In this document: in pieces, positions 1 to 45,246 of the stretch
Numbering within the stretch: the first letter of the stretch is position 1
Layout: each line of letters starts with the position of its first letter
DNA from: a virus
DNA length: 45,246 nucleotides
Direction: 5' to 3' (one strand)
IMG/VR virus record: IMGVR_UViG_3300009184_005663
Location: 1-45,246 of that record
The notes under the pieces: model-generated
What the model was told of the DNA's origin: nothing
Database searches by the model: none
What the model saw: only the letters and a program-made list of their open reading frames with translations
Translations under genes and position numbers: made by a program

Positions 1-802
1 AGATGGTTCAAGTGGAACTTCAGGTATAGATGGAACTTCAGGTTCAAGTGGTACTTCAGGTATAGATGGAACTTCAGGTTCAAGCGGTACTTCAGGTGAT
101 GGAACTTCAGGTTCAAGCGGTACTTCAGGTTCAAGTGGAACTTCAGGTTCAAGTGGTACTTCAGGTTCAAGTGGAACTTCAGGTTCAAGTGGTACTAGTG
201 GAATAGATGGTTCAAGTGGAACTTCAGGTTCAAGTGGTACTTCAGGTATAGATGGAACTTCAGGTTCAAGTGGAACTTCAGGTTCAAGTGGTACTTCAGG
301 TTCAAGTGGAACTTCAGGTTCAAGTGGAATTGGTACTGTAACTAATGTATCAGGCGTTTCACCTATAAATGTAAGTAATAATAGTAGTACTCCTTCTATA
401 AGTATAGATAATGCTGCATTAAATATACCAGGTATTGTATCAACAAGTGCTCAAACATTTAGTGGGGATAAAACTTTTGATGGTATTATAAAATTTATAA
501 AGCCTATTCAGAAAGGCAATGTAGAGATTATATCAATCAATACTACAATTACAACAACAAATAGTTGGTATATTTGTAATGGCAGTGGAACTATAACTAT
601 AACTTTACCAAATCCTGCATCATATTCAGGTATGGAATATCATATTAAAACTATAACAAATCAACTAGTAATTTCAGCATCATCAAATATTGTACCATTA
701 ATAGGTGGATCTCCTAGTACTAGCATTTTGCCAGCAGTTGCTGGTAGTTGGGTAACTCTTGTAAGTGATAATACAAATTGGATAATAATGCAATCAAACT
801 AG
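1..802 (+). CDS. Collagen-like fibre protein, 3' end (5' truncated by window)
   Basis: The frame is open from base 2 to the TAG at 800-802, giving 266 visible residues. The first ~110 residues are Gly-X-Y triplets made almost only of Gly, Ser and Thr (GSSGTSG), with occasional GIDGTSG units. The last ~155 residues are non-repetitive and rich in Ser, Thr, Asn and Ile, as in trimeric fibre tips. Collagen-like triplets are common in phage tail fibres and spikes, where they form triple-helical shafts. The protein is probably a virion fibre, like the two other collagen-like genes at the far end of the window. The N-terminus lies outside the window, so total length and attachment domain are unknown. 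The repeat has no Pro and no Lys, but every triplet carries possible O-glycosylation sites. Confidence 0.8.
2..330 (+). repeat. Tandem 18-bp repeats coding GSSGTS
   Basis: Imperfect 18-bp units (GGTTCAAGTGGAACTTCA and variants) run head to tail, interspersed with GGTATAGATGGAACTTCA units. They encode the collagen-like shaft of the truncated fibre gene. Near-identity at DNA level, including at third codon positions, indicates recent expansion by slippage or unequal recombination. Confidence 0.85.
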
Positions 803-14020: not shown

Positions 14021-16066
14021 ATGAGTAATTCTTTATTTGGTAGTTTAGAAGATGTATATGATGAAAAAAATAAACAAAATTCATCAAATGATATTCCTAT
14101 TAAAATTTCTAAAAAAACTCCTATTTTAGATAATTTTGGAAGAAATCTTACAGATTTAGCAGAAAAAAATCTACTAGATAATGTAATTGGTAGAGAATCT
14201 GAAATCCAGAGAGCTATTCAGATTCTCGGTAGAAGAAAAAAAAATAATCCAGTATTATTAGGTGAAGCCGGAACCGGAAAAACTGCAATAGTAGAAGGAT
14301 TGGCTATCAAAATCATTGAAGGCAAGGTGCCTATTTCACTACAAGGTAAAAAAATTTATACGATTGAGTTAACAAGTTTGGTAGCAGGATCTAAATATAG
14401 AGGTCAGTTTGAAGAAAGGCTAAAAGCCTTATGTGATGAATTAATTGCAAACCCTGATGTTATTATATTTTTAGATGAATTACATACTTTAGTAGGCGCT
14501 GGTAATTCTTCTGGGTCTTTGGATGCTGCAAATATTTTAAAACCTGCGCTTGCACGTGGTGAAATTCAGTGCATAGGGGCTACCACTTACAATGAATATA
14601 GAAAATATATAGAATCTGATCTTGCATTAGATAGAAGATTTCAAAAGGTAGTAATAAATCCTACTTCAGTTAGCGATACAATTCAAATATTAAAAAATAT
14701 TTGTAAAAAATATGAAGATCATCATGGAGTTATCTACTCTGATTATATTTTAGATATTTGCACTACATTAAGTGAAAAATATATTACAGATAGATTTCTT
14801 CCTGACAAAGCTATTGATATTATGGATGAAGTAGGTTCTCATATATTTATTAAAAATTCTTCATATCCTAAAGAAATTAAAGAATATGATGAAAAAGTAA
14901 AAAAGTATAAAGAGATGAAGACTGAAGCTGTACGTAAACAAAATTATGAAAAAGCAGCTAATTATAGAGATGAAGAAAAAAAAGCCCAAATTATCATTAA
15001 TGAGCTAAAAAATAGATGGGCTAGAGAAACAAAAAAGAATAAAGTAGAAATTAAAGAAGAAGATGTTTTAGAAGTTGTGTCTATGATGACAGGAATACCC
15101 ATTACTAATTTAACTGACGACGAAAATGAAAGACTGTTAAAAATGGGAGATTATTTAAAAACAAAAGTAATAGGACAAGAAGATGCAATTGATAAAATAG
15201 TTAATACTATACAAAGAAATAGAATTGGATTAGGTCTAAAAAACAAGCCAATTGGAAGTTTTATTTTTATAGGCCCTACTGGTGTAGGAAAAACCGAGTT
15301 AACAAAAGCAATTTCAGAATATCTTTTTCATTCAAAAGACTCACTTGTTAGAGTTGATATGAGTGAATATATGGAAAAATTTAATGTTTCTAAATTAATA
15401 GGATCTCCTCCTGGATACGTAGGACATGAAAATGGAGGGTTTTTAACAGAAAAAATAAAAAGAAAACCTTATTCTGTAATACTTTTAGATGAAATAGAAA
15501 AAGCACATCCTGATATTTATAATATTTTATTGCAAATTTTAGATGAAGGTCACCTTACTGATAGCTTAGGACGTAAAATTAATTTTAAAAATACACTTAT
15601 TATTATGACTTCTAATATTGGTATGAAAGAGGCCTCGGAATCATCTGCTATTGGATTTAATAATACAACAAAAGACGATGCAAAAAAAGTAATTATTGAA
15701 AAAAATATAAAAAAGACATTCTCTCCAGAATTTTTAAATAGATTAGATGAAGTTGTATTTTTTAATAAACTTGAACTTGATTCTATATCTAAAATTTTAA
15801 ATATTTATTTAGCAGATTTAGAAAAAAGAGTTAATGAGATAGGGTATAAATTACAGATATCAGATGATGTAAAATCTTTGATAATAAAAAATGGTCATGA
15901 TAATAAATTTGGTGCTCGTATCTTACAACGAACTATTCAAAAAATGATTGAAAATAAGATATCTGAAACTATTCTTAAGGAAAAACCTCAAAAAGGAAAA
16001 GTTTTTAAATTAGAATTAAAAAAAGGCACTATTGATCAAATAGACATTTTAATTAGGTCTAAATAA
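14021..16066 (+). CDS. ClpC/ClpA-like double AAA+ unfoldase lacking the Clp N-domain
   Basis: The 681-residue protein has two AAA+ modules. D1 has Walker A GEAGTGKT (81-88), Walker B IIFLDE (148-153) and the GSKYRGQFEERLK pore region. D2 has Walker A GPTGVGKT (418-425), Walker B ILLDE (487-491) and an arginine-rich sensor 2. A short middle region (~295-325) has the UVR-like EAVRKQNYEKAANYRDEE of ClpC, not the long ClpB coil. IGF at 544-546 matches the ClpP-docking tripeptide of ClpA/C/X. The ~150-residue Clp N-domain is absent and replaced by ~35 residues. No ClpP gene is in the window, so it may use host ClpP or act alone as an unfoldase. Confidence 0.92.
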   Translation: MSNSLFGSLEDVYDEKNKQNSSNDIPIKISKKTPILDNFGRNLTDLAEKNLLDNVIGRESEIQRAIQILGRRKKNNPVLLGEAGTGKTAIVEGLAIKIIEGKVPISLQGKKIYTIELTSLVAGSKYRGQFEERLKALCDELIANPDVIIFLDELHTLVGAGNSSGSLDAANILKPALARGEIQCIGATTYNEYRKYIESDLALDRRFQKVVINPTSVSDTIQILKNICKKYEDHHGVIYSDYILDICTTLSEKYITDRFLPDKAIDIMDEVGSHIFIKNSSYPKEIKEYDEKVKKYKEMKTEAVRKQNYEKAANYRDEEKKAQIIINELKNRWARETKKNKVEIKEEDVLEVVSMMTGIPITNLTDDENERLLKMGDYLKTKVIGQEDAIDKIVNTIQRNRIGLGLKNKPIGSFIFIGPTGVGKTELTKAISEYLFHSKDSLVRVDMSEYMEKFNVSKLIGSPPGYVGHENGGFLTEKIKRKPYSVILLDEIEKAHPDIYNILLQILDEGHLTDSLGRKINFKNTLIIMTSNIGMKEASESSAIGFNNTTKDDAKKVIIEKNIKKTFSPEFLNRLDEVVFFNKLELDSISKILNIYLADLEKRVNEIGYKLQISDDVKSLIIKNGHDNKFGARILQRTIQKMIENKISETILKEKPQKGKVFKLELKKGTIDQIDILIRSK

Positions 16067-16604: not shown

Positions 16605-18506
16605 ATGAAAATTGTTTTTATTACACCTAATCTTTCAACAGGCGGTATGCCTGAATATGTAAGAAGAAGTATTGAACTATTAAATAGAGAACAGAATACT
16701 GTTCTATTAATAGAAATGAGAACAGAATATGTTTTAAATGCCATAAGACAAAGAGTATTGGATCTAACTGGGATAGAACTATTCTCTGCAGAAAAAAGTT
16801 CTATTAAAGCCGTACAAAAAATTAAGGATTTTAATCCTGACGTTATTCATTTTACTGAGCCTTCGGAACAAGTTATTAATCCTGATTATCTATCTGAGAT
16901 TTATGTTGAAAATAGAACTTGGAAAATTATAGAAACCTGTCATGATTCTTCTTATCCTTTACAGTCTAAGCAATTTCTACCTGATAAATTTTTATTAGTT
17001 TCTCCTTTTCAAGTAAGAATGATGCAATCTCTTCAAATACCATCTGAATTAATTCAATATGATGTGCCAGAACTAGATAAAATTGATAAATATTTTTTAA
17101 TTAAAAAACTTAATTTAGATCCTAATAAAAAGCATATCTTTCAATTTGGTATTTTTTCACCTAGAAAAAATCAAAAAGAAACAGTAGAAATTGCAAAATT
17201 AATGATTAATGATCCAGTTCAATTCCATTTCGTAGGAAATACTGCTGATAGTTATTCATATTATTGGAAACCTATCTTAGATAATTTACCAAAAAATTGT
17301 AAATTTTGGGGTGAACATAAAGATGTACAGCAATTTTATTCAGTTGCAGATATGGTTATATTTCCATCTATTGAATTAATAGATGATAAAGAAACAAATC
17401 CACTTGTTATAAAAGAAACTATTAAATATAAAATACCTCTGTTTTTAAAAGATACTCCAGTCTATTTAGGAATGTATCCAGAAAATTCTAAGGTGACCTA
17501 TATGAAATCAACACACTATGATAATTATGTTCTTATTCAACAAATTTTAAAACTAAAACAAAAAGAAAATATGATTAAATTATTTTTTAACAAAGAAGAT
17601 AACAAATTAGAAATCTGGTCAGAGCAGGCAATTGGTAAAAAAATAATATCAGTTAAAGATATTGATTCAGAAGCAACTATCTATTCTTTTGATGTTGACT
17701 TTAGTACACCTGAACAGACTTGGTGGTGTAGACCTATTCCAATAGAACATTATGATTTTTATAATGAACCTACATTTACAGGCTTCTTAGTAGAAGTTTG
17801 GTCAGAAGATAAAACACACATAATAGAAAAAGAAACAATTTCTTTTAAAGAGTCTCAAGTAAAAAGAAAAATACCAGGTTTAGATGATTTTGAACCTATT
17901 TTTGTTAATTATGATCAATTTTTTGTTAAAAAAATATATGATAATTTGTTCGCTGGTGAAAGAATGAATAAAATTATAGATATAGGTGCGAATGTTGGTC
18001 TTTTTACACAATGGGCACTTGACAGATTTGGAAAAGATTCGAGTATTCTTGCTTTTGAACCTAATCCTATTGCAATTCAAGCATTTAAGAAAATTCACAG
18101 CCATAATGAAAATATATTTTTAATTGAAGCAGCCGTTGCTGATAAAGAAGGCGACATCTATTTAGGAATAGATCCAAATAATTCTACTACTTCATCTATT
18201 TATAAAAAAGAAAACCAAATAAGTATTAAAGCTGTTACACTGGCGGACTCTATGAAACAACATGGCTGGTTATCAGCAGATCTTTTAAAAATAGATATTG
18301 AAGGATGTGAATATGATGTTATTAATGCAATGACTGAATTTCCATTTAAACATTTATTAATAGAATTTCATGATAATGTTGGACAATTAGATAAAGTTTT
18401 GCAAAAGTTAAAAAATGAAGGATACCATTTAGAAATACGAAAAGAGGATACTCGATTTAGAGGATCTTCTGCTGATTATAAAGGGCTTATTATAGCTCAT
18501 AAATAA
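16605..18506 (+). CDS. Fusion: GT4-like glycosyltransferase + FkbM methyltransferase
   Basis: The 633-residue protein has three parts. Residues 1-315 are a GT-B fold (MKIVFITPNLSTGGMPEYVR at the N-terminus; FQFGIFSPRKNQKETVEIAK at 179-198; donor-side FPSIELIDDKETNPLVIKE at 253-271). Residues ~325-415 are a beta-rich linker. Residues ~430-633 are an FkbM methyltransferase with DIGANVGLF (459-467), AFEPN (483-487) and LLKIDIEGCEYDV. The fusion suggests a sugar is added and then methylated, or a methyl cap is placed on the chain. It starts the second glycosylation block after a short A/T-rich gap. Confidence 0.87.
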   Translation: MKIVFITPNLSTGGMPEYVRRSIELLNREQNTVLLIEMRTEYVLNAIRQRVLDLTGIELFSAEKSSIKAVQKIKDFNPDVIHFTEPSEQVINPDYLSEIYVENRTWKIIETCHDSSYPLQSKQFLPDKFLLVSPFQVRMMQSLQIPSELIQYDVPELDKIDKYFLIKKLNLDPNKKHIFQFGIFSPRKNQKETVEIAKLMINDPVQFHFVGNTADSYSYYWKPILDNLPKNCKFWGEHKDVQQFYSVADMVIFPSIELIDDKETNPLVIKETIKYKIPLFLKDTPVYLGMYPENSKVTYMKSTHYDNYVLIQQILKLKQKENMIKLFFNKEDNKLEIWSEQAIGKKIISVKDIDSEATIYSFDVDFSTPEQTWWCRPIPIEHYDFYNEPTFTGFLVEVWSEDKTHIIEKETISFKESQVKRKIPGLDDFEPIFVNYDQFFVKKIYDNLFAGERMNKIIDIGANVGLFTQWALDRFGKDSSILAFEPNPIAIQAFKKIHSHNENIFLIEAAVADKEGDIYLGIDPNNSTTSSIYKKENQISIKAVTLADSMKQHGWLSADLLKIDIEGCEYDVINAMTEFPFKHLLIEFHDNVGQLDKVLQKLKNEGYHLEIRKEDTRFRGSSADYKGLIIAHK

Positions 18507-18511
18507 TAGTT

Positions 18512-19582
18512 ATGAAAGATATTTTTTTAATAGATGCATATTTAAATACTGATAAAAACAAAAAAGTTTTTATTGAATCCATATCTAGAGTTAGAGATAT
18601 GGGTTTTAAAATTTTTCTTATAACTAATTTAAAACCTACTCCAGAAGTATTAGAAATAGTAAATTATTGTTTTTATGATGAAGAAAATAGGAATTTTTCT
18701 GATGATTTTGAAGAATATCCAAGCATTTCAGTTTTTTCATCAAATGGCGATGTTAGAATTCAAACAGAATCTTATCATAAACAAAAGCATTCGTTATCTG
18801 TTCATTCCAATATGTATAGAGGTTTTGAAATTTTAAAAACTCTAGGATATACTCATTGTTATAGAATGGAATATGATAGTTTAATTCATTATAATGATGT
18901 AGAAAAAATAAAATTAATACCACAATCTCTCGGCGATAAAAAAGCTATTTTTTATTTAGATAAAAATAATAAACATATTTTTTATCATTTATGGTATTGT
19001 GATATAGATTGGATGTTAAACACATGTACTAAAATTAGAAATGAAAATGATTATATTAAAAGAATAGTAGAAATTACAGGTAAACGGAAATTTCTGCCAG
19101 CTGAAGAATTTTTAGCTGAAGATTTAAAAAATAATTATGATGATGTTATTATTTTAGAAACAGTAGAAGGAAGTTTTAATTCAGAATTTCCACATACTAC
19201 TTGGAATAATGTAATTAGTGATCACACTAATGAAAAATTTAAAAATGGTTTCTATGGAGGAATTTTTAAAGTAGCACGAGATACTGAAAATGGTTTACAT
19301 ATTAAAGGCGATAAAGGTGCAATAGTAGCCTGGAATATAGGTTCAACTGAAGATAATTGGATTCATGTCACTTTTTTTAATAAAGATGGAAAAATTGATA
19401 ACATATTAAAACTGGAATTAAGTAGTAATGAAAGTTGGAAATCCCAATTTTTTGAATTTACTGAAAATTGTGAAGTTGAAATAAAATTAAGCAATGGAAT
19501 AGTTCATACATTTTTATTATGTAGAGAATTTCTTGTAAACACTAAAGATACAATAATTATTAATGAAAATAGTTCAGATTAA
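18512..19582 (+). CDS. Putative GT-A glycosyltransferase with C-terminal beta domain
   Basis: Of the 356 residues, ~1-240 look like a GT-A fold. A first strand is followed by an arginine-rich helix, and HCYRMEYDSLIHYND (115-129) has an acidic motif where DxD is expected. Residues ~245-350 form a beta-rich domain (GLHIKGDKGAIVAWNIG, then regular strands) like the linkers in the neighbouring GT fusions. No exact family is recognised. The context, between two glycosyltransferase fusions and overlapping the next gene by 20 bases, supports a sugar-transfer role. Confidence 0.6.
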   Translation: MKDIFLIDAYLNTDKNKKVFIESISRVRDMGFKIFLITNLKPTPEVLEIVNYCFYDEENRNFSDDFEEYPSISVFSSNGDVRIQTESYHKQKHSLSVHSNMYRGFEILKTLGYTHCYRMEYDSLIHYNDVEKIKLIPQSLGDKKAIFYLDKNNKHIFYHLWYCDIDWMLNTCTKIRNENDYIKRIVEITGKRKFLPAEEFLAEDLKNNYDDVIILETVEGSFNSEFPHTTWNNVISDHTNEKFKNGFYGGIFKVARDTENGLHIKGDKGAIVAWNIGSTEDNWIHVTFFNKDGKIDNILKLELSSNESWKSQFFEFTENCEVEIKLSNGIVHTFLLCREFLVNTKDTIIINENSSD

Positions 19583-21881
19583 TCCTGGTATTTTACCAAT
19601 CCCTCCTAATGGATGGGGTGCTGTAGAAAAAATTATTTGGGAATATAGTATAGTCCTTAGAAAGATGGGCTATTGTGTTGATATTAAATATTTAAATGAT
19701 ATTGATACAACTTATGATATCGTTCATGTCCACATGGCTAATTTAGCTATAGAATTAAAACATAGAAAAATACCCTATATTTTCTCAATGCATGATCACC
19801 ATGTAGTTTGGTTTGGTAAAGATTCTGACTGTTTTAAAAAGAATCTAGAAGCAATTGAAGGTTCAATTATATCATTCGTCCATGCTAAATTTTTAATTGA
19901 CTATTTTAATAGTTCAAAATTAGTTTATCTGGAACATGGCGTGAATATTGAAGAATATGCATATATAGAAAGAACTTTTAAAAAGCCTAAACTTTTATGT
20001 CTTGCAAATAATGGAATTCTAGAAAATCAATCACACGATAGAAAAGGATTTCGATATGCAATAGAAGCTGCGCACGCACTCGATTTGCCAATAACTGTAG
20101 CAGGTCCTAAAAATAATCAAAACTTTTTTAATCAAAATTTAGATTTATTAAATTATAAAAATTTAGATATTATTTATGATTTAAATCAAGAAGAATCTGT
20201 TAATATTTTTTCATCTCACGATATTTTCTTACATCTATCCGATCTAGAAGCAGGACATCCTAATTTAACTTTAATAGAGGCTGCGTCAACTGGAATGCCA
20301 ATAGTAGGATGTATGGAAACTTCAATGCCTGGATTAATATTAGCAAAAAGAGAAAAAGAAAATGTTATAGATGGGATACAGCAGGTAATAGATGCATATC
20401 CTATTTTATCTAAACTTTCTAGAGAAAATGCTGAATTGCATTCATGGAACGTAATAGTTTCTAAATTATTAGAACATTATCAAAATGCTTTAGGCTGGGA
20501 TATGTCTAAAAAAATGATAGATTCATATATAAATACACCTTTAGTACATAAACATAAAAAAAATTATAATCCATACATTGTTAAATTTAATCTTGCGCCT
20601 GACAATGTTAAAATTAATACTGAAATTAGTTTACCCGGAGCGGGTGTTTCTATTCTTTATAAAAAAGGAAATTTAATTAAAAACTTTTTTGATCATGGCC
20701 AAGAATCCAGAAAATGGTCTTCTGTAAATCACAGAGGAGAATGGATAGATTGGAATATAATTATAAAAAATGGTTCAACTGTTGTTAAAGAAATAACAAA
20801 TAGTCTAGAAAATAAAATAGTTGGAGTCAGTATTGAAAATGAATTTGATCTTAATATTTTACAATTATTTAAAATTGAAAAAAAATGTATTCTTGTTTTA
20901 ATAGGAAATTTTGATGATAATACGAAAAAGCTTATAAGAGAATTTGATATTTATTTTTATGATAAAGCTAAATCTTTAGACTATTGGTATTCATGGCCAA
21001 CTATTGTAAATTGGGAAAAAAGTTTAAATAGTGAAATTAAAGTAATAGATAAAAAAACTCTTTTGCGGTTAAGAAGCAAAGCACTAGGAGATACTATTGC
21101 ATTTGTTGAATCATGTCAAGCGTGGAAAGAAAAATGGAATGAAAAACCAACAGTATCTATTAATTCAGCTTTTATTGATATTTTTAAATCATACGATTTA
21201 GATTTTATTGATCATAATTTTAATCCTAGTGATTTTACCGATATTATTGTTTCAGACTATCATTTTAAAGATGCATTACAACATGGATTTCAACAAGATT
21301 TAGGATTAGATTTAGTTAAAAAAGTTCCTAATTTGAGATTTAAACCTAGTGCTAGACCTATCCAAAGTAAATATATCTGCTTTAGTACCCATTCTACAGC
21401 ACAGGCTAAAATGTGGAATTATCCAGAAGGCTGGGATATTCTTTGTAAATTGTTAAGGAAGGAAAATATTACCCCAGTATGTATTGATAGATATGAAAGT
21501 TTTGGAATTGAAGGGCACTGGAATCCAGTACCTAAGTCATCAGTTAAAAAAATAGGTATGCAATTTTCAGAAATAATGAATTTTATACATCATTCTGAAT
21601 TATTCGTTGGGCTTAGTAGCGGATTATCATGGCTATCACATGGGCTAGGTAAAAAAACTATTATGATTATTGGTCCAACTGCGTACGAATATGAAAAAGA
21701 TAATTATGTAATACAAAATAAAGATGTATGTCACTGTTGTTTTCATTCACCTGATTTATATCCATTCGATCCTGGCGATTGGATGTGGTGTCCTGTAAAT
21801 AAAGGTACTGATAAACATCATGAATGTACTAAAACAATTACACCAGAACAAGTATTTAATAAAATAATGTCAATTTTATGA
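19563..21881 (+). CDS. Bifunctional GT4 + TibC/Aah-like heptosyltransferase
   Basis: The 772-residue protein combines a GT4 domain (1-315) with a TibC/Aah-like autotransporter heptosyltransferase region (~335-772). The GT4 domain has GGWGAVE-like NGWGAVEKI at 16-24 and the donor motif HPNLTLIEAASTGMPIVG at 232-249. The second region has a beta-rich N-part, LRLRSKALGDTIAFVESCQA (501-520), GLSSGLSWLSHGLGKKTIMI (683-702), and a cysteine-rich tail. Cysteines 723, 726, 743 and 755 with DPGDWMWCP and KGTDKHHEC match the iron-binding cluster that defines TibC-type O-heptosyltransferases, which use ADP-heptose to modify Ser of beta-helical adhesins. A heptose kinase gene lies 2.4 kb downstream. Family call is strong; substrate is inferred. 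Confidence 0.85.
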   Translation: MKIVQINPGILPIPPNGWGAVEKIIWEYSIVLRKMGYCVDIKYLNDIDTTYDIVHVHMANLAIELKHRKIPYIFSMHDHHVVWFGKDSDCFKKNLEAIEGSIISFVHAKFLIDYFNSSKLVYLEHGVNIEEYAYIERTFKKPKLLCLANNGILENQSHDRKGFRYAIEAAHALDLPITVAGPKNNQNFFNQNLDLLNYKNLDIIYDLNQEESVNIFSSHDIFLHLSDLEAGHPNLTLIEAASTGMPIVGCMETSMPGLILAKREKENVIDGIQQVIDAYPILSKLSRENAELHSWNVIVSKLLEHYQNALGWDMSKKMIDSYINTPLVHKHKKNYNPYIVKFNLAPDNVKINTEISLPGAGVSILYKKGNLIKNFFDHGQESRKWSSVNHRGEWIDWNIIIKNGSTVVKEITNSLENKIVGVSIENEFDLNILQLFKIEKKCILVLIGNFDDNTKKLIREFDIYFYDKAKSLDYWYSWPTIVNWEKSLNSEIKVIDKKTLLRLRSKALGDTIAFVESCQAWKEKWNEKPTVSINSAFIDIFKSYDLDFIDHNFNPSDFTDIIVSDYHFKDALQHGFQQDLGLDLVKKVPNLRFKPSARPIQSKYICFSTHSTAQAKMWNYPEGWDILCKLLRKENITPVCIDRYESFGIEGHWNPVPKSSVKKIGMQFSEIMNFIHHSELFVGLSSGLSWLSHGLGKKTIMIIGPTAYEYEKDNYVIQNKDVCHCCFHSPDLYPFDPGDWMWCPVNKGTDKHHECTKTITPEQVFNKIMSIL

Positions 21882-22564
21882 TAAACAGTTGTATTGTAAT
21901 TCCATCAAGGCTAGAATCTCAAAGATTTCCTAATAAACCTTTAGCGATAATAGCGGGAAAAAGTATGATAAGACGTGTTTTAGAAAAGGGATTATTAAGT
22001 TCTGCTGAATTAGTTTTAGTTGCTACTGATAGTGAAAAAATATATGAAGAATGCAAAGGGCACTCAATACTGACCTGTGATTGTTCTAATGGCACTGAAA
22101 GACTTATTGAAGTAGCAAAAAAAATAAATGCTAGAGTTTATATTAATTTACAAGGCGATGAACCGTTAGCAAGCCCAGCTGATTTAAATACATTAATACA
22201 GAAGTGTAAAGAAATGTCAGGCATTCATACTCTAATGACAGATATATCAGGTGATGATATACATAATAGTAATGTAGTTAAGGTTCTCTGTAAGGCTCAT
22301 AGTGACTATAACCAATGTTTTCTTTTTTCTAGAACTAAAGAAAGTTCTTATAAGCATATTGGCATTTATGCTTTTGATAGAAAAACTCTTTTACAAATAA
22401 AAAAATTAAAGCCTTCTCCTAATTCTCTTAAAGAAAATTTAGAACAATTAACGTGGCTAGAATCTAATATTCCTATCTATTCTTGGTATACTTCTCATTT
22501 ATATCAAGCTGTAGATGTACCAGAAGATATAAATAAAGTGCTATCTATATTATCTCAAAAATGA
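21878..22564 (+). CDS. kdsB: KdsB-like CMP-sugar (CMP-Kdo) synthetase
   Basis: The 228-residue protein follows KdsB closely. PSRLESQRFPNKPL (9-22) is the CTP-binding loop, NGTERL (71-76) and NLQGDEPL (90-97) hold the sugar and the Mg-binding Asp. NVVKV, HIGIYAF, ENLEQLTWLE and AVDVPEDI follow in the proper order. KdsB activates 3-deoxy-manno-octulosonate (Kdo) with CTP for lipopolysaccharide synthesis; related enzymes use 8-amino-Kdo or similar acids. It is ~20 residues shorter than the E. coli enzyme. It overlaps neighbours by ATGA on both sides. The acid sugar donor it makes would feed a transferase in the cluster or in the host. Confidence 0.9.
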   Translation: MINSCIVIPSRLESQRFPNKPLAIIAGKSMIRRVLEKGLLSSAELVLVATDSEKIYEECKGHSILTCDCSNGTERLIEVAKKINARVYINLQGDEPLASPADLNTLIQKCKEMSGIHTLMTDISGDDIHNSNVVKVLCKAHSDYNQCFLFSRTKESSYKHIGIYAFDRKTLLQIKKLKPSPNSLKENLEQLTWLESNIPIYSWYTSHLYQAVDVPEDINKVLSILSQK

Positions 22565-23791: not shown

Positions 23792-24319
23792 TTGAAAAAT
23801 CCAGTATCACGATTTCAAAGTTTTAAAAGCATTAAAGATAAAAGAAAAGAAATTGAAAATCTTGTCAATACCAAAAACCCTGTCCTTTATAAAGGACATA
23901 ATTTAGAAAAATATGTATCATCAATGATACTTCTATTTGAAAATTTAAATTTTAATCTTAAGCCATATCCTGAAGTTGAATTTTTAAGTGATACTACATA
24001 TAGTAATGAATTATTAGGGTATACCGGACATTATATTTTTGAAAAAAGTAAAATAATTATTTACACAAGCGGTCGTCACGTAAAAGATATTATGAGAAGT
24101 TTTGCTCATGAATTAGTGCATCATAACCAATTTATAAAAGGTTTTACATTAAGTAATGTTAATCAAATGAAACTTAATGATAGAATGTGGAGAGAAAAAG
24201 AAGAATTTCTAAAATATTTAGAAGATTATTCATATCTAGAAGGAGATGCATATCTTAAAGGAAATATGTTATTTAGAACATGGACTAATGCAATATCACA
24301 AAAATTAATTCAATTATGA
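23792..24319 (+). CDS. Zinc metallopeptidase-like protein (HExxH)
   Basis: The 175-residue frame starts at TTG 23792, the only start that keeps the conserved N-terminal helix; the first ATG lies ~45 residues in. Residues 101-115 contain MRSFAHELVHHNQ, whose HELVH (106-110) is a zinc-binding HExxH motif. A beta hairpin precedes it (IYTSGRH). A glutamate-rich segment after the motif (EEFLKYLEDYSYLEGDAYL) could supply the third zinc ligand. Such minimal metallopeptidase-like proteins occur in large phages with unknown targets. Activity is inferred only from the motif. Confidence 0.72.
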   Translation: MKNPVSRFQSFKSIKDKRKEIENLVNTKNPVLYKGHNLEKYVSSMILLFENLNFNLKPYPEVEFLSDTTYSNELLGYTGHYIFEKSKIIIYTSGRHVKDIMRSFAHELVHHNQFIKGFTLSNVNQMKLNDRMWREKEEFLKYLEDYSYLEGDAYLKGNMLFRTWTNAISQKLIQL

Positions 24320-25095
24320 AAATAACAGTCATAGGAGAAAAATGTATAGATGAATTTATCTATGGCAATTGTACAAGACTCAACCCCGAAGCACCTACAC
24401 CTGTTTTCGTAGAAAAACAAAAAAAAGAAAATTTAGGCATGGCTGCTAACGTTGTTGAAAATCTCCTAAGTTTAGGAGACATTACAATATTTAAATTTCA
24501 TCAACCAGAATCTCAAATAATTAAAAAGACTAGATATGTTGATGAAGTTTCAAACTATATTATGCTTAGAGTGGATTTAGAAGAAAAAGTTAAAAGAATT
24601 AAAATTAACGATACGCTTATTGAACAGATAAAATCATCAGATCTTCTTGTTATCTCAGATTATGACAAAGGATTTTTACATCCTGGTGATCTTGATATTC
24701 TAGCCAAAACTTCAAATATTTCTATCATAGATACAAAGAAAAATATTGAAAATACTTGGGCCACATCTTTTGATTTTATTAAAATGAATAAAAATGAATG
24801 GGAAAATCCAATGCATGTTAATAAGAATAATTTTATTGATAAGACTATAATCACATGTGGAAAATATGGTGCATCTTGGCGAAATAAAATGTATCATGGA
24901 GAAGAAGTTGAAGTAATGGATGTAGTAGGCGCAGGCGATTCTTTTTTAGCTGGATTTTCTCACATGTTTGTTAAAAGTAAAGATCCTGAAAAATCAATAA
25001 AATTTGGCAATTTAATAGCAGCTAACGCTGTAAAACAAAGAGGAGTTGTTAATAAAATTAATAATATTAAAGACATTTATGATAAAATCAAATAA
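24316..25095 (+). CDS. hldA: HldA/RfaE-like heptose-7-phosphate kinase (PfkB family)
   Basis: The 259-residue protein is a ribokinase/PfkB enzyme most like the kinase domain of HldE/RfaE. RLNPEAPTPVF (21-31) is the heptose-kinase signature, then GMAANV (41-46, normally GGAANV), KTRYV (71-75), SDYDKG (114-119), and the catalytic GAGDS (205-209). HldE phosphorylates D-glycero-D-manno-heptose 7-phosphate at C1 en route to ADP-heptose. It is ~55 residues shorter than usual because the segment after the GGAANV motif is compacted, and there is no cytidylyltransferase domain. The gene overlaps its upstream neighbour by ATGA. ADP-heptose is the donor expected for the TibC-like and GT9-like enzymes of this window. 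Confidence 0.85.
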   Translation: MKITVIGEKCIDEFIYGNCTRLNPEAPTPVFVEKQKKENLGMAANVVENLLSLGDITIFKFHQPESQIIKKTRYVDEVSNYIMLRVDLEEKVKRIKINDTLIEQIKSSDLLVISDYDKGFLHPGDLDILAKTSNISIIDTKKNIENTWATSFDFIKMNKNEWENPMHVNKNNFIDKTIITCGKYGASWRNKMYHGEEVEVMDVVGAGDSFLAGFSHMFVKSKDPEKSIKFGNLIAANAVKQRGVVNKINNIKDIYDKIK

Positions 25096-32070: not shown

Positions 32071-32652
32071 ATGAATTTTATTTATACAAAAAAAAATGCT
32101 TTATCAGCAAATACATGCCATCAGCTGATTAAAAATTTTGAATCATCTGAATTAAAACAGCCAGGTGTTTTATATGGTCCTAGTGGAATATCTTCAGATA
32201 GCGATAAAAAGTCAACAGACATAACATTTGACCCATCCTTCTTAAAAAAAGAAGGATGGGGTTTGTTATTAAATGAAGTAATTACAGTAGTTCAAAATGG
32301 AGTTTTAGACTATTTAAATAGACATTCTACTGCAATGACTAAAATGGATTCTATAGACTTATATACTTACTTTAATATGCAAAAGTATGAACCAAATGAA
32401 GGTTTTTATGGTTGGCATTGCGAAAGAGCAGGTGTAAAACATTCAGATAGATTGTTAGTATGGATGATATATTTAAATACTTTAACAGATAGAGGAGAAA
32501 CTGAGTTTTTCTATCAGCAACATTTTGAAGAACCTGAAAGAGGCAAATTAGTTATTTGGCCGTCAGATTGGACACATTTGCATAGAGGTGTTCCATCACC
32601 AACTCAGACAAAATATATTTTAACAGGGTGGTTTACTCACAATAAAGTATAA
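32071..32652 (+). CDS. 2OG-Fe(II) oxygenase (prolyl-hydroxylase-like fold)
   Basis: The 193-residue protein ends in a double-stranded beta-helix. YGWHCERAG (113-121) supplies the first metal His (116) with Glu118 in place of the usual Asp. IWPSDWTHLHRGVPS (162-176) supplies the distal His (169 or 171), and KYILTGWF (181-188) the 2-oxoglutarate-binding Lys/Arg. An N-terminal helical part (STCHQLI-like) is typical for P4H-type oxygenases. It would hydroxylate a protein side chain or a small molecule. It is the first of three oxygenase-like genes beside collagen-like and propeller fibres. Confidence 0.85.
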   Translation: MNFIYTKKNALSANTCHQLIKNFESSELKQPGVLYGPSGISSDSDKKSTDITFDPSFLKKEGWGLLLNEVITVVQNGVLDYLNRHSTAMTKMDSIDLYTYFNMQKYEPNEGFYGWHCERAGVKHSDRLLVWMIYLNTLTDRGETEFFYQQHFEEPERGKLVIWPSDWTHLHRGVPSPTQTKYILTGWFTHNKV

Positions 32653-32657
32653 AATTT

Positions 32658-33254
32658 ATGGAATTTTCAATACACGAAGAAAATTGGTTTTCAACTCCAG
32701 TATGGGAATCAGAGGTGACAAATGTAAATAATCAAGAAATAAAAGATTACTGCTTGTGGTTAAGAGATAATACAAAAGGCACTACTATATCAAATAGAGG
32801 AGGCTGGCACAGTAGTGAGATCATACAACCAATACCTGTTGATTTAACAAAACTATTTAATAATCTTGAAATATTTGTTAATCAAAATTGTTATAAGCAT
32901 ACAGGTATCGATAATTTAAAGTTTGGGAATTTTTGGGTTAATATTAATGAACCTGGTTCTTATAATTTACTACACGACCACCAAAACAGTATATTGTCTG
33001 GTGTATATTATGTATCAGTTCCATTTGACAATATGGGTGATTTGGTTTTACATAGAGGAGACACTGCACCATATTTTTTAAAATCAGACGTGGAGAGAAT
33101 TAGTACAAAAACAAATTCTTTTGTAGCTGTAAAAAAACCTTTAGAGTCTTTCTTTTATATATTTCCATCATGGGTTAAACATCATGTTGAATCTAATGAT
33201 TCACAAGGCGAAAGAATATCAATAGCATTTAATTTTGTTCCTAATAATAAATAG
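32658..33254 (+). CDS. TIGR02466-type 2OG-Fe(II) oxygenase-like protein
   Basis: The 198-residue protein has the order of features of the TIGR02466 family: W-x-N (FWVNINEPGSYN), LLHDHQNSILSGVYYV with the metal-site H-x-H, and FYIFPSWVKHHVESN carrying the distal His. RISIAFNF closes the barrel. These are putative 2OG-dependent oxygenases common in marine phages, with no known substrate. It is 5 bases downstream of a P4H-like gene and has a paralog immediately downstream. Confidence 0.82.
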   Translation: MEFSIHEENWFSTPVWESEVTNVNNQEIKDYCLWLRDNTKGTTISNRGGWHSSEIIQPIPVDLTKLFNNLEIFVNQNCYKHTGIDNLKFGNFWVNINEPGSYNLLHDHQNSILSGVYYVSVPFDNMGDLVLHRGDTAPYFLKSDVERISTKTNSFVAVKKPLESFFYIFPSWVKHHVESNDSQGERISIAFNFVPNNK

Positions 33255-33255
33255 T

Positions 33256-33894
33256 ATGAACCCACAAGTATTTTCACTGTTTCCAACACCTTTATATGTT
33301 GCAAATTACGATAAAGATTTAAAAAATGTAATTAATTATTTTGATAGTTGTGAGATGTTAGATACAAATAGTGGCTATGGAATGATTTCAAGTAATAGTT
33401 ATATTTTAGATAATCCTGTATGCAACGAATTAAATAAATTCTTAATGTCTTGTTTTGAAGATTTTGCAACAAATATTATGAGATACAGATTTAAAGAATT
33501 AGCATTTGCTCAATCTTGGTTAACTTATAAAAATCCAAACCAAATTCATAAGGCGCATACACATCCTAATACTTTATTAGCAGGAGTATTTTATTATGAT
33601 GCACATGAAGATGATGCAGCGATATGTTTTTCAAAAGAAGTAAAATCATTTAATAGGTCATATTTTGAGCCATCATTACATGATGATTATCAAAATCACG
33701 TCTTTTCACAAGAAGAAATTTACTACATGCCTAAGAAAAATGATTTTATTATTTTTCCATCATGGTTAACACATGGAGTGCCACCTAATAAAACAAATAG
33801 GACAAGAAAGGCGCTTGGGGTCAATGCTTTAACAAAAGGGACATTAGGTGATAAGGAAACAATTTCTGAAATAATTTTTGGTAGATACGTATGA
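33256..33894 (+). CDS. TIGR02466-type 2OG-Fe(II) oxygenase-like protein, paralog
   Basis: ATG 33256, one base after the upstream stop, is the best start (212 residues). The protein shows the same pattern: QSWLTYKNPNQIHKAHTHPN (first His pair), TLLAGVFYYDA, and FIIFPSWLTHGVPPN (distal His), followed by RKALGVNAL. It is a divergent tandem paralog of the preceding gene. The last bases overlap the sulfotransferase start by ATGA. Substrate is unknown; a virion or glycan target is plausible by position. Confidence 0.82.
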   Translation: MNPQVFSLFPTPLYVANYDKDLKNVINYFDSCEMLDTNSGYGMISSNSYILDNPVCNELNKFLMSCFEDFATNIMRYRFKELAFAQSWLTYKNPNQIHKAHTHPNTLLAGVFYYDAHEDDAAICFSKEVKSFNRSYFEPSLHDDYQNHVFSQEEIYYMPKKNDFIIFPSWLTHGVPPNKTNRTRKALGVNALTKGTLGDKETISEIIFGRYV

Positions 33895-34709
33895 AACAGA
33901 AAATATTTTTTAATTCAACACTACCTAGAAGCGGTAGCACATTACTTCAAAATTTGCTGGGACAAAACCCAGATTTCTATGTTACACCAACATCAGGTCT
34001 TATAGATTTGATGTTAGGCACACGAATAGGATATAATCAAAATTATGAATCAAAAGCTGGCGATGTTGAATTGTGGAAAGAAGGCTTTTATAAGTTTTGT
34101 TCACATGGAATAGAAGGTTATGTACGGTCACAAACAACAAAACCATATTATCTAGATAAAAATAGAGTTTGGGGATTTTACTATAATTTATTAGCACATA
34201 TTGTAGAAAAACCAAAAGTATTATATATGGTTAGGGATTTACCATCAATCTTTGCTTCAATGGAGAAGAAATTTAGGATGAATCCAGATAAAGATGATGG
34301 AACTATGGATAACATAAAAATGAAAGGAACAACAACTCATAAAAGAGTTGAATTATGGGCACAAACGCACCCTTTAGGTTATTCACTTGAAAAATTATAT
34401 CAGACATTATTAGATGGCACAGCTTCTAACTTTCTATTTATTAGATATGAAGATTTATGTATCAATCCTAATCATGTAATGAAAAGTATATATCAATATT
34501 TAGAGTTAGATGAATTTAAACACAATTTTCAACATATAAACCAAATAACAACTGAGAATGATGCAATACATGGAATATATGGAGATCATGTGATAAGACC
34601 ATCTTTACAAATGCTACCGAATGATTCAAAAGAAATATTAGGAATGCATACAATAGATTTAATTAAAGAGAATTATAAATGGTATTATGATTTCTTTGGG
34701 TATAAATAA
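33891..34709 (+). CDS. PAPS-dependent sulfotransferase
   Basis: The 272-residue protein has the 5'-phosphosulfate loop LPRSGSTLLQNLLG (11-24) and the 3'-phosphate motif YMVRDLPSIFASM (112-124), with Arg115 and Ser119 as ligands. It ends with an acceptor/dimer-like LFIRYEDLCINP segment, which is typical for sulfotransferases. PAPS would come from the host. It would sulfate a sugar hydroxyl or a protein. The gene sits at the junction between the tailoring genes and the first propeller gene, only 9 bases from it, so co-expression with the fibres is likely. Confidence 0.9.
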   Translation: MKQKIFFNSTLPRSGSTLLQNLLGQNPDFYVTPTSGLIDLMLGTRIGYNQNYESKAGDVELWKEGFYKFCSHGIEGYVRSQTTKPYYLDKNRVWGFYYNLLAHIVEKPKVLYMVRDLPSIFASMEKKFRMNPDKDDGTMDNIKMKGTTTHKRVELWAQTHPLGYSLEKLYQTLLDGTASNFLFIRYEDLCINPNHVMKSIYQYLELDEFKHNFQHINQITTENDAIHGIYGDHVIRPSLQMLPNDSKEILGMHTIDLIKENYKWYYDFFGYK

Positions 34710-34718: not shown

Positions 34719-35693
34719 ATGTCAAAATTACAAAGCACAGAAATAGTAGGTGTTGAAAATAGGCCAGCAACAATATGTTCAAATACGATGTGCATTTGGT
34801 TTGACACGACTAATTTAAGAACAGTCATTTCCTATTGTGGGTATGGCGGAGCATCAGTATGGTCAGCAGGTGGTGCCATAATAACAGGAAGACGTGAATT
34901 AGCAGGTCTTGGGACTCAAAATGCAGCATTTGCGGCTGGTGGTAATACAATAGCAGGAAGAACAGGAGTATCAGAAGAATATAATGGTGCAAGTTGGGCA
35001 ACAGGCGGTACATTAGCAACCGCAAGATATAGATTAGCAGGCGGCGGTTCACAGAATGAAGCATTTGTCGCTGCCGGTCGAACAACAAGTCCTGTTAATT
35101 TTACTGAAGAATATAACGGTGCAAGTTGGTCAGCTGGAGGTGCAATGATAAATTTTTGTAAAGTAAATTTAGCAGCGTCCGGAACCCAAAATGCTGGATT
35201 AGCAATGGGCGGTCAAGATGATCTTGGTAATTTTTGTTCAGCGACCACCGATGAATATGATGGGGCAAATTGGTCATCTGGAGGTACAATGAGTTCAGGT
35301 AGACAAACGCTAGCAGGAACAGGAACGCAGAATGAAACATTAGCAATGGGTGGTTTTATAGCTGCAGTTGCGTCATGTACAGAAGAATATAATGGAACAT
35401 CTTGGTCAACAGGCGGTGTAATGACAACAGCAAGACGTCAATTAGCAGGCGGCGGTACACAAAATGCAGCTTTTGTTACTGGCGGGTGTACTACTGCTGT
35501 TACTACAGCAACAGAAGAATACAATGGGGCCAGCTGGTCATCTGGCAATGTTCTATCCTGTGCTAGAGGGTGCTTAGGTAGTGCTGGCGACATAACAAAT
35601 GGATTAGCATTTGCAGGTGGAAATAATTCATATATAAGATGTACTGAAGAGTATAGCGCAGCACTGGCGATAATAGATAAGATAATATTATAA
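34719..35693 (+). CDS. Kelch-like beta-propeller fibre protein 1
   Basis: The 324-residue protein has a ~42-residue N-terminal module (MSKLQSTEIVGVENRPATIC, then CIWFDTTNL and ISYCG) followed by six ~44-residue blades. The blade pattern is W-S-x-GG-x-(M/L)-x-x-(A/G)R, LAG-x-GTQN, and (T)EEYNG-(T/A)S. Such repeats have the kelch hallmarks of a GG pair, YNG and W, so a six-bladed propeller is predicted. The tail ends LAIIDKIIL, shared with paralogs. Propellers on phage fibres may bind glycan receptors. This copy is the most diverged in the array (third blade altered, last blade lacks GTQN). Confidence 0.85.
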   Translation: MSKLQSTEIVGVENRPATICSNTMCIWFDTTNLRTVISYCGYGGASVWSAGGAIITGRRELAGLGTQNAAFAAGGNTIAGRTGVSEEYNGASWATGGTLATARYRLAGGGSQNEAFVAAGRTTSPVNFTEEYNGASWSAGGAMINFCKVNLAASGTQNAGLAMGGQDDLGNFCSATTDEYDGANWSSGGTMSSGRQTLAGTGTQNETLAMGGFIAAVASCTEEYNGTSWSTGGVMTTARRQLAGGGTQNAAFVTGGCTTAVTTATEEYNGASWSSGNVLSCARGCLGSAGDITNGLAFAGGNNSYIRCTEEYSAALAIIDKIIL

Positions 35694-35708
35694 AATAAGA
35701 TAAAGTAA

Positions 35709-35830
35709 ATGGCTAAATTACAAAGTACAGAAATAGTAGGAGTTGCAAATAGGCCAGCAACAATATGTTCAAATAGTGTTTGTATGTGGTTTGATACAAC
35801 TAATACTAAAATGGTTTTTTCGTATTGTGG
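35709..35830 (+). repeat. 122-bp direct repeat, copy 1 (shared with 36663-36784)
   Basis: The first 122 bases of this propeller gene, coding the N-terminal module up to SYCG, are base-for-base identical to the start of the next gene. The blade parts then diverge abruptly. Confidence 0.95.
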
Positions 35831-36647
35831 TTTAAGTGGTGCTGGTATATGGTCAGCAGGTGGTGCTTTAAGTATTGCTAGAGAATGTTTAGCTGGTGCA
35901 GGAACACAAAATGAATCATTTGTAGCAGGCGGCTTTTTTATTACAAATATATCAAATACTGAAGAATACAATGGTGCATCGTGGTCTGCTGGTGGTGCAT
36001 TACTAAATGCAAGACATGGTGCAGGTGCAGCAGGCACTCAGAATGCAGGACTTACTATGGGAGGGCCTTCTCTATCATGTACTGAGGAATATGATGGCGC
36101 TACTTGGACTGCTGGCGGAGTTATGATAACAGCAAGAAGAGGTCTTGCAAGCGCAGGCACACAAAATGAAGCATTTGCAGTAGGCGGTATAGGCGGAACT
36201 GGATGCACCGAGGAATATAATGGTGTAAGTTGGTCAGCCAGTAATGCATTAGGTACTGCAAGGGCTTGGTTAGCTGGAGCTGGAACTCAGAATGTAGGTC
36301 TTGTGATGGGCGGCTTTGTTGCAAGTAGTCTAGCGTGCACTGAAGAATATAATGGTACAAGCTGGTCAGCCAGTAATGCATTAGGCACTGCAAGGTATTC
36401 GTTAGCTGGAGCAGGCACACAAAACTTAGGTCTTGCTACAGGAGGTCGTTTAAATACATCATTATCATGTACTGAAGAGTATAATGGTACATCATGGTCA
36501 GAAGGTGGATCATTAATAACTGCACGAATGGGATTAGCAGGCTCAGGATCACAGTTTTCTAGTCTTGTAGCTGGTGGGTTTTCAAATACAACTGTAACAT
36601 GCACTGAAGAATACATTAAATTAGCTAATGTAGATATTAGTATTTAA
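35709..36647 (+). CDS. Kelch-like beta-propeller fibre protein 2
   Basis: This 312-residue paralog has the same N-terminal module (KLQSTEIVGVANRPATIC) and six blades. Blades 4 and 5 share the odd WSASNALGTAR start instead of WSAGG, pointing to internal duplication. The last blade has GSGSQFSSL where others have GxGTQN. The C-terminal tail is LANVDISI. Its first 122 bases are identical to the first 122 of the next gene, so the two have exchanged sequence recently. Confidence 0.85.
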   Translation: MAKLQSTEIVGVANRPATICSNSVCMWFDTTNTKMVFSYCGLSGAGIWSAGGALSIARECLAGAGTQNESFVAGGFFITNISNTEEYNGASWSAGGALLNARHGAGAAGTQNAGLTMGGPSLSCTEEYDGATWTAGGVMITARRGLASAGTQNEAFAVGGIGGTGCTEEYNGVSWSASNALGTARAWLAGAGTQNVGLVMGGFVASSLACTEEYNGTSWSASNALGTARYSLAGAGTQNLGLATGGRLNTSLSCTEEYNGTSWSEGGSLITARMGLAGSGSQFSSLVAGGFSNTTVTCTEEYIKLANVDISI

Positions 36648-40644: not shown

Positions 40645-42057
40645 GTGGCCGGTTATAAAATTATCAATACAGGTGGTATAGGTCTTCAGACGGATAATGA
40701 AGGAGTTAGTATTCCTACTGCAAATGGCACAAGCGGTTTAAGAACTATAGGAACTCCTACAGGATCTATTATTTTTAATTTAGAAGATAATCAATTATAT
40801 TCATTTAATGGAACTTCATGGTTAAAAACAAATACCAGTGGATCTAGCGGCACGAGTGGATCTGCTGGATCAAATGGTACTGCTGGATCTAGTGGTACGA
40901 GTGGATCTAGTGGTACTGCTGGATCTAGTGGTACGAGTGGAATATCTGGCCCTCAAGGGTTACAGGGACCAATTGGTCCTCAAGGAGCAACAGGACCACA
41001 AGGAGCAATAGGACCTCAAGGGATATCTGGACCGCAAGGTTTACAGGGACCTATTGGTTCAGCAGGAACATCTGGCTCTTCAGGGACAAGTGGAACATCT
41101 GGTTCTTCAGGAACAAGTGGAACATCTGGTGCAACAGGAACAAGTGGAACATCTGGTGCAACAGGTCCACAAGGAGCACAAGGCCCAACAGGAACAACAG
41201 GTCCACAAGGTCCACAAGGAGCGCAAGGCATAGCCGGCACGAGTGGTTCTAGTGGTACTCGTGGTTCTAGTGGAACAAGTGGTTCTAGTGGAACAGCAGG
41301 CACATCTGGCGCAACAGGCCCGCAAGGAGCACAAGGTCCAACCGGATCAACAGGTCCAACCGGAACAACAGGTCCACAAGGAGCACAAGGTCCAACCGGA
41401 TCAACAGGTCCACAAGGAACACAAGGTCCAACCGGATCAACAGGTCCACAAGGAGCACAAGGTCCAACCGGATCAACAGGTCCACAAGGATCTGCTGGAT
41501 CTAATGGAACAACAGGTCCACAAGGAGCACAAGGTCCAAGTGCAGGAATAACATCATATACAAACCCAGCCGACAATAGAGTATTAACATCGGTATCATC
41601 TACAGCAATAAATTCTGAAACTAATTTAACTTTTGATGGAACCACTTTAACGGTTGTTGCAGGTGATTTAAAAATAACAGCAGGTTCAATTTCAGTAGGA
41701 GGTAATATAGCAAATAGTGCAACCGATGGTAGAATTGATGCAAGTAATGATATTGTAGCATTCTCAACATCAGATAGAAGATTAAAAGATAACATAAAAA
41801 ATATTGAAAACCCAATTCAAAAAATATTAAAACTAAATGGTGTTGAATTTGATTGGAATGAAGATTATTATAAAATTCATGGTTATGAGGGAAATGACAT
41901 TGGTGTGATTGCTCAAGATTTAAAAGATGTATTACCACAAGCATTAAGAATAAATGATAGTGGATATTATGCAGTTAGATATGAAAAAATTATACCATTA
42001 CTTATTGAATGCATTAAGGATTTAAATAGTGAAATAAAAATACTAAAAGAAAAATAA
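40645..42057 (+). CDS. Collagen-like tail fibre with C-terminal S74 intramolecular chaperone
   Basis: The GTG at 40645 opens a 470-residue protein. The N-terminus ([20 protein letters not shown]) and PTGSIIFN, then LYSFNGTSW, form the attachment module. Residues ~70-305 are collagen-like triplets: GTSGSSG blocks, then GPQG, and [12 protein letters not shown] units repeated in 36-bp DNA blocks. The C-terminus is a Peptidase S74 domain: SDRRLK (376-381) holds the Ser/Lys pair of the autocleaving chaperone, followed by [15 protein letters not shown] and [20 protein letters not shown]74 domains trimerise fibres and then cut themselves off. The N-terminal module is repeated in the gene at 43122. 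Confidence 0.92.
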
Positions 42058-43121: not shown

Positions 43122-45246
43122 TTGGCTGGATATAAAATTATTAATACGAGTGGTATAGGTCTTCAAACCGATAATGAAGGACTCTCTATCCCTATTACAA
43201 CCAATATTAATTTGCTGAGTACTAGTGATATACCTACCGGTTCTATTGTTTTTAATACAGCGGATTCTCAACTATATGGATTTAATGGAACTAGTTGGAT
43301 TAAATCAGATACTAGTGGAACAAGTGGTTCTAGTGGGACAACGGGTTCTTCTGGAACTAGTGGTTCTAATGGAACAGGCGGTTCTTCTAGAACTAGTGGT
43401 TCTTCTGGAACAAGTGGAATTCAAGGCCTTCAAGGAGAACAAGGATATATTGGTCCACAAGGTGCAATCGGCCCACAAGGAATACAAGGCTCTATTGGGC
43501 CGCAAGGCGTACAAGGCATACATGGGACAAGTGGTTCTAGTGGGACAAATGGTTCTAGTGGGACAAGCGGTTCTAGTGGAACAACAGGTACAAGTGGAAT
43601 AGCAGGTCCACAAGGCCTACAAGGCAACACTGGACCACAAGGCAGCACTGGGCCGCAAGGTATACAAGGACTTATTGGACCACAAGGCATACAAGGTTCT
43701 AGTGGGACAAGTGGTTCTAATGGGACAAGTGGTTCTAGTGGGACAAGTGGTTCTAGTGGAACAAGTGGTTCTAGTGGGACAAGTGGTTCTAGTGGGACAA
43801 GTGGTTCTAGTGGGACAAGTGGAATAGCTGGTCCGCAAGGACCACAAGGACCACAAGGTGTAAGTGGAACAAATGGTTCTAGTGGGACAAGTGGAATTAT
43901 TGGGTCTCAAGGCCCGCAAGGACTGCAAGGCATACAAGGCCCGCAAGGCTTGCAAGGTGCAGCAGGCCCACAAGGTTTGCAAGGTGCAGCAGGCCCACAA
44001 GGTTTGCAAGGTGCAGGAGCAAGCACAGTCTCTTCCGAATCAAGGCCTTCTCCCATAAATGCAGATCAAATGTGTTTATGGTTTGACACAACAAATAAGA
44101 TGCCAATGGTTTCTTACTGTATTAACACATCATTAGTAGGTGCTTGGTCAGCAGGGGGTGCATTGATAACAGCAAGAGGTTATTCATCAGGAGCAGGAAC
44201 ACAAAATGCAGGACTTGCTTTTGGTGGGACTAATCTATTAACTTGTACTGAAGAATACAATGGTACAAGTTGGTCAGTAGGGGGTGCAATGATAACAGCA
44301 AGATATGCTTTGGCAGGCGCAGGAACACAAAACGAAGGTCTTGCAGCAGGTGGTTTTACAACTGTAGCAGTATCATGTACTGAAGAATATAATGGCACAA
44401 GTTGGTCATCAGGTGGCGCAGTTATAACAGTAAAATATTTTTGTGCAGGAGCAGGTACGCAAAATGCAGGTCTTACTATGGGAGGAGCTCCTGCTCCTTC
44501 ATTATGCACAGAAGAATACAATGGCACATCTTGGTCAGTAGGTGGTGTAATGATAAACGCAAGACAACTATTAGCAGGTGCGGGAACACAAAATGCAGGA
44601 CTTGCTATGGGAGGTACTTACAATGTTACTTTATCTTGTACAGAAGAATACAATGGTACATCTTGGTCATCAGGAGGTGCTTTGATAACTGCAAGGCATT
44701 ACCTAGTAGGAGCAGGAACACAAAATGAAGGACTTGTTTTTGGGGGGTATACGGGTGTGAGTATGTCTTGCACAGAAGAATACAATGGTACATCTTGGTC
44801 AACGGGTGGTGCATTAGCAACTGCACGTTATGGTCCATTTACAGGAGCAGGTACACAAAATGCAGGTCTTGCAGCAGGAGGTACAGCAGGTGGTGTTACT
44901 AGAACTTGCACAGAAGAATACAACGCACCAACCGAAATTGTTGACCGTAGTTTAGACTCATCATATATTACAGCAGAATATTCAGAACGACCTAACTTAG
45001 TTGATACAGGAATGTGTTTGTGGTATGATAGAGAAAACAATGTACCGATGATTACCTATAAAGGAGGTACACTATTAATTGGTGCTTGGTCAGCAGGTGG
45101 AGTTTTAATAACAGCAAGAGCTACTTTAGCAGGCGCAGGTACACAAAACGCAGGACTTGCAATAGGAGGTTTTGGCGCGGGCAGCAATTTATCATGCACT
45201 GAAGAGTATAATGGAACAATATGGTCTGCAGGAGGTGCTTTAATAA
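43122..45246 (+). CDS. Mosaic fibre: attachment module, collagen-like shaft, two kelch-like propellers (3' truncated)
   Basis: From TTG 43122 the frame is open to the window end (708 codons). The N-terminus ([19 protein letters not shown], then PTGSIVFN and GFNGTSWIK) copies the S74 fibre module. Residues ~65-305 are collagen-like, alternating GTSGSSG and GPQGxQG blocks. Then [19 protein letters not shown], a cousin of the propeller N-terminal module, leads into a six-bladed propeller. A linker with [19 protein letters not shown] starts a second propeller, of which about 1.3 blades are visible. The TTG start is supported by alignment with the GTG start of the S74 gene. The C-terminus lies outside the window. 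Confidence 0.85.
43695..43820 (+). repeat. Seven tandem 18-bp units (GSSGTS)
   Basis: GGTTCTAGTGGGACAAGT is repeated seven times with only two substitutions (one AAT for AGT, one GGA for GGG). It codes collagen-like shaft triplets in the mosaic fibre. Near-perfect DNA identity implies recent expansion. Confidence 0.9.

Follow-up and report, generated by a model that had tools for sequence, protein, structure and literature searches.

The closest described relatives of the protein considered here are the autotransporter heptosyltransferases TibC and AAH (BAHT; TIGR04414; PDB entries 4RAP and 4RB4), bacterial enzymes that attach heptose to adhesins. In TibC, D110 is the catalytic base, T226 and K230 contact the β-phosphate, W305 contacts heptose O4 and R286 contacts adenine N1, with activity being abolished or largely diminished when R286 is mutated to Ala. 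P300 is a stereoselectivity site that is occupied by Ser in AAH, and iron is bound by cysteines 339, 342, 358 and 370 (Yao et al., 2014; PMC4358343). Lipopolysaccharide (LPS) heptosyltransferases I–III (GT9, PF01075) are more distant, sharing with our protein the GT-B fold and remote sequence similarity. BshA, MshA and SdgB belong to the GT4 family and have the same fold as its N-terminal half at 15–20% sequence identity; SdgB glycosylates Ser-Asp repeats in proteins, and an SD peptide is named in the title of entry 7vfm. The glycosyltransferases (GTs) of phage host-recognition islands are usually taken to act on host LPS or on phage DNA. In mycobacteriophages, virion proteins are decorated by GTs that the phages themselves encode (as cited in PMC12619734), as is likewise proposed below; the glycans there are on the C-termini of capsid and tail-tube proteins, and no TibC-type enzyme is mentioned in that account. 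One uncultured Caudovirales phage protein with the same kind of domain (A0A6J5SVC1) is already named 'Glycosyltransferase Aah/TibC' in the database, a name with which no acceptor is proposed, and a search of open PMC text yielded no publication on TibC-like phage enzymes.

We analysed a window of 45,246 bases, an IMG/VR virus record that is a fragment with many glycosyltransferase and fibre genes (Table 1). It contains an intact, complete ORF whose product is almost certainly related to the TibC/AAH family and is probably a two-domain protein glycosyltransferase. The ORF overlaps its neighbours at both ends, as in an operon, its stop overlapping the start of the kdsB-like gene. The upstream neighbour, which is 61% identical to its copy in L003 (a 62% relative), matched no family in our searches and may, judged by eye, be a GT-A enzyme.

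Table 1. Features of the 45,246-base window discussed in the text.
Feature	Position	Strand	Evidence or remark
Ser/Thr-rich collagen-like fibre, 5' end missing; candidate acceptor	2..802	+	repeats
GT4 + FkbM methyltransferase, in cluster	16605..18506	+	family matches, blastp
Uncharacterised 356 aa protein, overlaps fusion gene	18512..19582	+	kept in synteny in L003
Fusion glycosyltransferase: GT4 half + β domain + TibC/AAH-like half	19563..21881	+	772 aa
GT4 (GT-B) domain, residues 1-312	19563..20498	+	PF00534; VIA; conserved residues
Eight-strand β domain, residues ~338-423	20574..20831	+	DSSP of model
TibC/AAH-like catalytic domain, residues ~496-772	21048..21878	+	profile match, conservation
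CMP-Kdo synthetase-like (kdsB-like) cytidylyltransferase	21878..22564	+	NF003952 188 bits, cut-off 193
Heptose-7-phosphate kinase-like protein (HldA/RfaE domain I)	24316..25095	+	TIGR02198 1e-32, below cut-off
Collagen-like tail fibre with Peptidase_S74 chaperone domain; candidate acceptor	40645..42057	+	PF01391 1e-35, PF13884 5e-16, tail fibre PHROGs
Collagen-like stalk + repeated heads, 3' end missing; candidate acceptor	43122..45245	+	repeats

A preliminary description of this DNA had read the gene as a GT4 transferase fused to a TibC/AAH-like enzyme, and both halves of that reading are borne out. PF00534 matches residues 160–255 (3.6e-6, 27.1 bits against a gathering score of 26.4), structure comparison with VIA gives a Z of ~27 to BshA, MshA and tll1591, and E229, H232 and E239 are invariant across homologues of the GT4 half. 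The search against the autotransporter heptosyltransferase family that had been recommended returned TIGR04414 (hepto_Aah_TibC, NCBIfam) over residues 486–771 (E = 3e-49, 167.9 bits), though below the curated cut-off of 200 bits; on sequence grounds the protein is best described as a homologue of this family and not an equivalog member. TibC was the sole match in a phmmer search of the PDB, and a profile built from six phage relatives covers the catalytic domain of TibC in full (9e-70). The 'heptosyltransferase motifs' noted earlier hold for the TibC family but only weakly for GT9 in general, with PF01075 reaching 20.4 bits, below its gathering score of 22. Together with the top Foldseek match given below, these scores rule out assignment to a plain GT9 family, and sequence and predicted fold alike disfavour such an enzyme acting on LPS, which had been named as the refuting case; the LPS heptosyltransferases differ further from the fusion protein, which has iron-finger cysteines and a TibC-type β domain.

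The active-site residues D110, T226, K230 and W305 of TibC correspond to D510, T612, K616 and W690, and the P300/S294 selectivity position holds a Ser (S685), as it does in AAH. The cysteines of the preliminary description (C723, C726, C743 and C755) are found at the positions given there and align with the four iron-finger cysteines of TibC in order. In an alignment of 63 sequences that share less than 90% identity, no row lacks any of the four cysteines, K616 or W690, and D510 is missing from a single row, which is gapped. Since the search patterns left out C723, C726, D510, K616 and W690, this conservation is more than chance, although C743 and C755 were in part included. R286 is replaced by I671 (Ile); Arg is present at this position in 9/57 phage members versus 8/9 bacterial members.

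An AlphaFold2 (AF2) model of the fusion protein (18 sequences, pLDDT 82, pTM 0.45) has TibC as its top-ranked Foldseek structure (1.2e-20), so that the proposed structure prediction supports the family relationship; the cysteine region itself was modelled at a pLDDT of 53–80. Over the full chain the Foldseek r.m.s.d. to TibC is large (~12 Å over 470 columns); in a second look, VIA aligned 4rb4_B over model residues 339–772 (Z of 25.6) with an r.m.s.d. of 4.2–5.3 over 307–314 residues. The β domain, in a protein that has no match to PF21129, occupies the place of the N-terminal β-barrel of TibC in the model and precedes the catalytic domain in both proteins. Apart from the GT4 fusion and the loss of R286, the fusion protein differs from TibC/AAH in its surroundings: no autotransporter was recognised among the window ORFs, whereas one adjoins the TibC-like gene of Enterobacter L303.

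TibC-like domains are rare in INPHARED, where they occur in 4 of 50,697 records, namely two 735-kb and one 636-kb uncultured phage records and Microcystis phage Mel-JY01. The Mel-JY01 protein (WWT39291; L005:4747-8430) is annotated only as an FkbM methyltransferase and ends in a TibC-like domain; its gene adjoins an ORF of GTSGTRGTSGSSG repeats, with GTSG-repeat ORFs nearby. In IMG/VR, at least 527 confirmed stretches encode relatives of the domain. TIGR04414 matches all 60 members tested, 34 of which also have GT4-type Pfam domains. About 20 members show the GT4–β–TibC architecture, their N-termini resembling MKI.Q..PG...IPPNGWGA.EKIIW. Only midpoint rooting was applied to the tree, in which the classical enzymes, those of Commensalibacter, Enterobacter, Pandoraea and Paraburkholderia, group in a single clade (100/100) that lies among phage sequences. 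The fusion protein falls outside it, in a separate phage clade that also holds L003 and short forms lacking the fusion; GSSG repeats occur within 10 kb of two of these short forms, L013 and L014. Two gammaproteobacterial MAGs, L093 and L094, also fall outside the classical clade. In TibC, a β-hairpin thumb joins dimers into the dodecameric ring. This thumb segment is 26 residues long in the classical clade and 25 in that of the window, where the length is TibC-like and the tip differs (IEGHWN in the window versus QGFVWN in TibC); most phage members, as well as L091, L093 and L094, have a shortened segment of 15–18 residues. Because thumb length and tip vary in this way, the TibC ring is unlikely, as judged from the sequences, to be shared by all members.

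The evidence on the acceptor is comparative. Ser/Thr-rich Gly-X-X runs of at least 21 residues (composition S 0.41, G 0.33, T 0.19) lie within 10 kb of 23/50 non-redundant TibC-like loci versus 1/67 PhoH control loci (p = 1e-9), which may lie away from fibre regions; where any Gly-X-X run is present, it is of the Ser/Thr-rich type at 23 of 28 TibC-like and one of seven PhoH loci (p = 0.002). In records longer than 60 kb, taken whole, a strict DNA pattern for five Gly-[Ser/Thr]-[Ser/Thr] repeats was found in 25/30 TibC-like records against 4/25 PhoH controls (p = 6e-7), one of these four controls also carrying a TibC-like domain, and the reversed five-repeat pattern was found in none of the long records. 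The remaining five of the 30 have the domain and lack the strict repeat; some repeat tracts extend to 2,760 residues (L023). At loci of 2OG oxygenases, used as a second control, domain and repeat occurred together nine times (mostly in near copies), the domain alone once, the repeat alone never and neither 64 times. Close adjacency of gene and repeat was considered and rejected: repeat density is flat between 0 and 10 kb from the gene, and we therefore claim linkage at the level of the genome or island only. In the reverse direction, a TibC-like domain was present in 11 of 120 short repeat stretches, so that for many repeat proteins no such enzyme is encoded close enough to fall within the same stretch.

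The bacterial members bear on whether a common phage lineage accounts for this association. In L094, a 112 aa lipoprotein-like repeat ORF lies 107 bp from the gene of a thumb-less TibC-like transferase (the pair at L094:3596-5178), and in L093 two lipoprotein-like repeat ORFs lie within ~2 kb of the gene of another such transferase (together at L093:7683-10855), all built of the same Ser/Thr-Gly repeat as the phage fibres. Neither context looks phage-like, and descent from a common phage lineage therefore accounts less fully for the association; a survey of 369 bacterial genomes in the class of L093 recovered only the two seeds. With slightly less than even confidence, we propose a large, hitherto barely recognised virus-borne TibC/AAH branch, most of which lacks the thumb and the adenine-reading Arg, that O-glycosylates Gly-Ser/Thr-Ser/Thr collagen-like repeats of phage fibres and, in some bacteria, of small lipoproteins, the classical autotransporter heptosyltransferases being one branch among mainly phage sequences.

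The window itself encodes three Ser/Thr-rich collagen-like fibres, and the phage's own collagen-like fibres are probably the acceptor. The preliminary description had pointed to fibres, which stands as likely, and to β-rich repeats, the kind found in TibA/AIDA-I, in place of which the comparative evidence favours a Ser/Thr-rich collagen-like fibre. Our best explanation, to which we assign a probability of roughly 0.55, is that the TibC-like half primes Ser/Thr residues of these fibres and that the GT4 half extends the glycan; here we infer the acceptor, the donor and the order in which the two halves act. D510 would activate the Ser/Thr hydroxyl in Gly-(Ser/Thr)-(Ser/Thr) repeats and the TibC-like half would transfer the first sugar, probably heptose from an ADP-linked or other nucleotide donor, in D,D or L,D form, given the Ser at the selectivity site. 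The GT4 half and the products of neighbouring GT and FkbM genes would then lengthen and cap the glycan prior to assembly of the fibre into the virion. Other phages (L015, L024, L037, L040, L062, L063, L067 and L080; blastp) have the GT4 part of the GT4–FkbM gene joined directly to a TibC-like domain, and in L006, the ninth of the nine proteins compared, the same link is found with a neighbouring gene, which links both window genes to one pathway. Such phages may thus sugar-coat their own fibres, and dense O-glycosylation of these repeat fibres would offer a testable role, other than the usual ones, for such GTs in hundreds of uncultured phages, including those with genomes of 636–735 kb. It would also explain a common fibre repeat sequence and suggests a new class of acceptor for the TibC fold.

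Two other acceptors have to be weighed against the collagen-like fibres. The GT cluster spans positions 7180–29839 and includes the kdsB-like and heptose kinase-like genes; such a cluster could serve another glycan, and its remodelling of host LPS or capsule against superinfection would follow the published reading for pelagimyophages (PMC7029224) and the way in which GTs of host-recognition cassettes are usually interpreted in marine phages. We regard modification of the host surface as unlikely, since the TibC-like half belongs to a protein-modifying subfamily and not with LPS heptosyltransferases I/II, and since the family is associated with Ser/Thr-rich fibres and, in bacteria, is paired with repeat lipoprotein-like ORFs. 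Paralogous fibre-like genes of repeated units (EEYNGTSW family, PHROG 27227, function unassigned) occupy 34719–39466 and 42059–43045. That they, or another virion protein, are the acceptor seems more improbable still: several genes of Ser/Thr-containing repeats do lie near the cluster, TibC/AAH act on β-rich repeats (PMC4358343) and the chain encoded at 43122–45245 carries both repeat types, but the comparative association, drawn from diverse phages and bacteria, was found for Gly-X-X repeats, the type surveyed.

The heptose claim is least secure on the side of the donor, because the Arg whose Ala mutant is impaired in TibC is lost. ADP-heptose is a plausible donor on sequence grounds; a transferase of TibC fold with new specificity, using another nucleotide or sugar, is a doubtful but weightier alternative than the two above and is compatible with a fibre acceptor. 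The scarcity of Arg among phage members and the adjoining CMP-sugar (kdsB-like) gene speak for it, and against it stand the retained heptose-binding W690 and phosphate-binding T612/K616, the heptose kinase-like gene in the window and the side-by-side homologues of heptose kinase and heptose-1-phosphate adenylyltransferase in L003, which score below curated cut-offs. Adenylyltransferase homologues occur in 10/30 TibC-like records versus 3/25 controls, a weak difference. GmhA was found in one of 55 records, the 636-kb phage; these phages thus do not generally encode a complete heptose pathway and would have to draw most of the precursor from the host.

Several other genes lie around the fibres. 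Between the fibre genes, positions 39495–40370 encode a protein that looks like GT9 by eye, has no family match and is a candidate second fibre-modifying transferase. A sulfotransferase gene (33891–34709; PF13469, 4e-17) adjoins the fibre genes, and just upstream of the fibres are three 2OG-Fe(II) oxygenases (32071–33894; PHROG 61 and 81), which might conceivably hydroxylate the collagen-like repeats. The window also encodes an Hsp20 (2906–3268) and a phage ClpA/ClpB-like ATPase (14021–16066) that is shorter than cellular ClpB.
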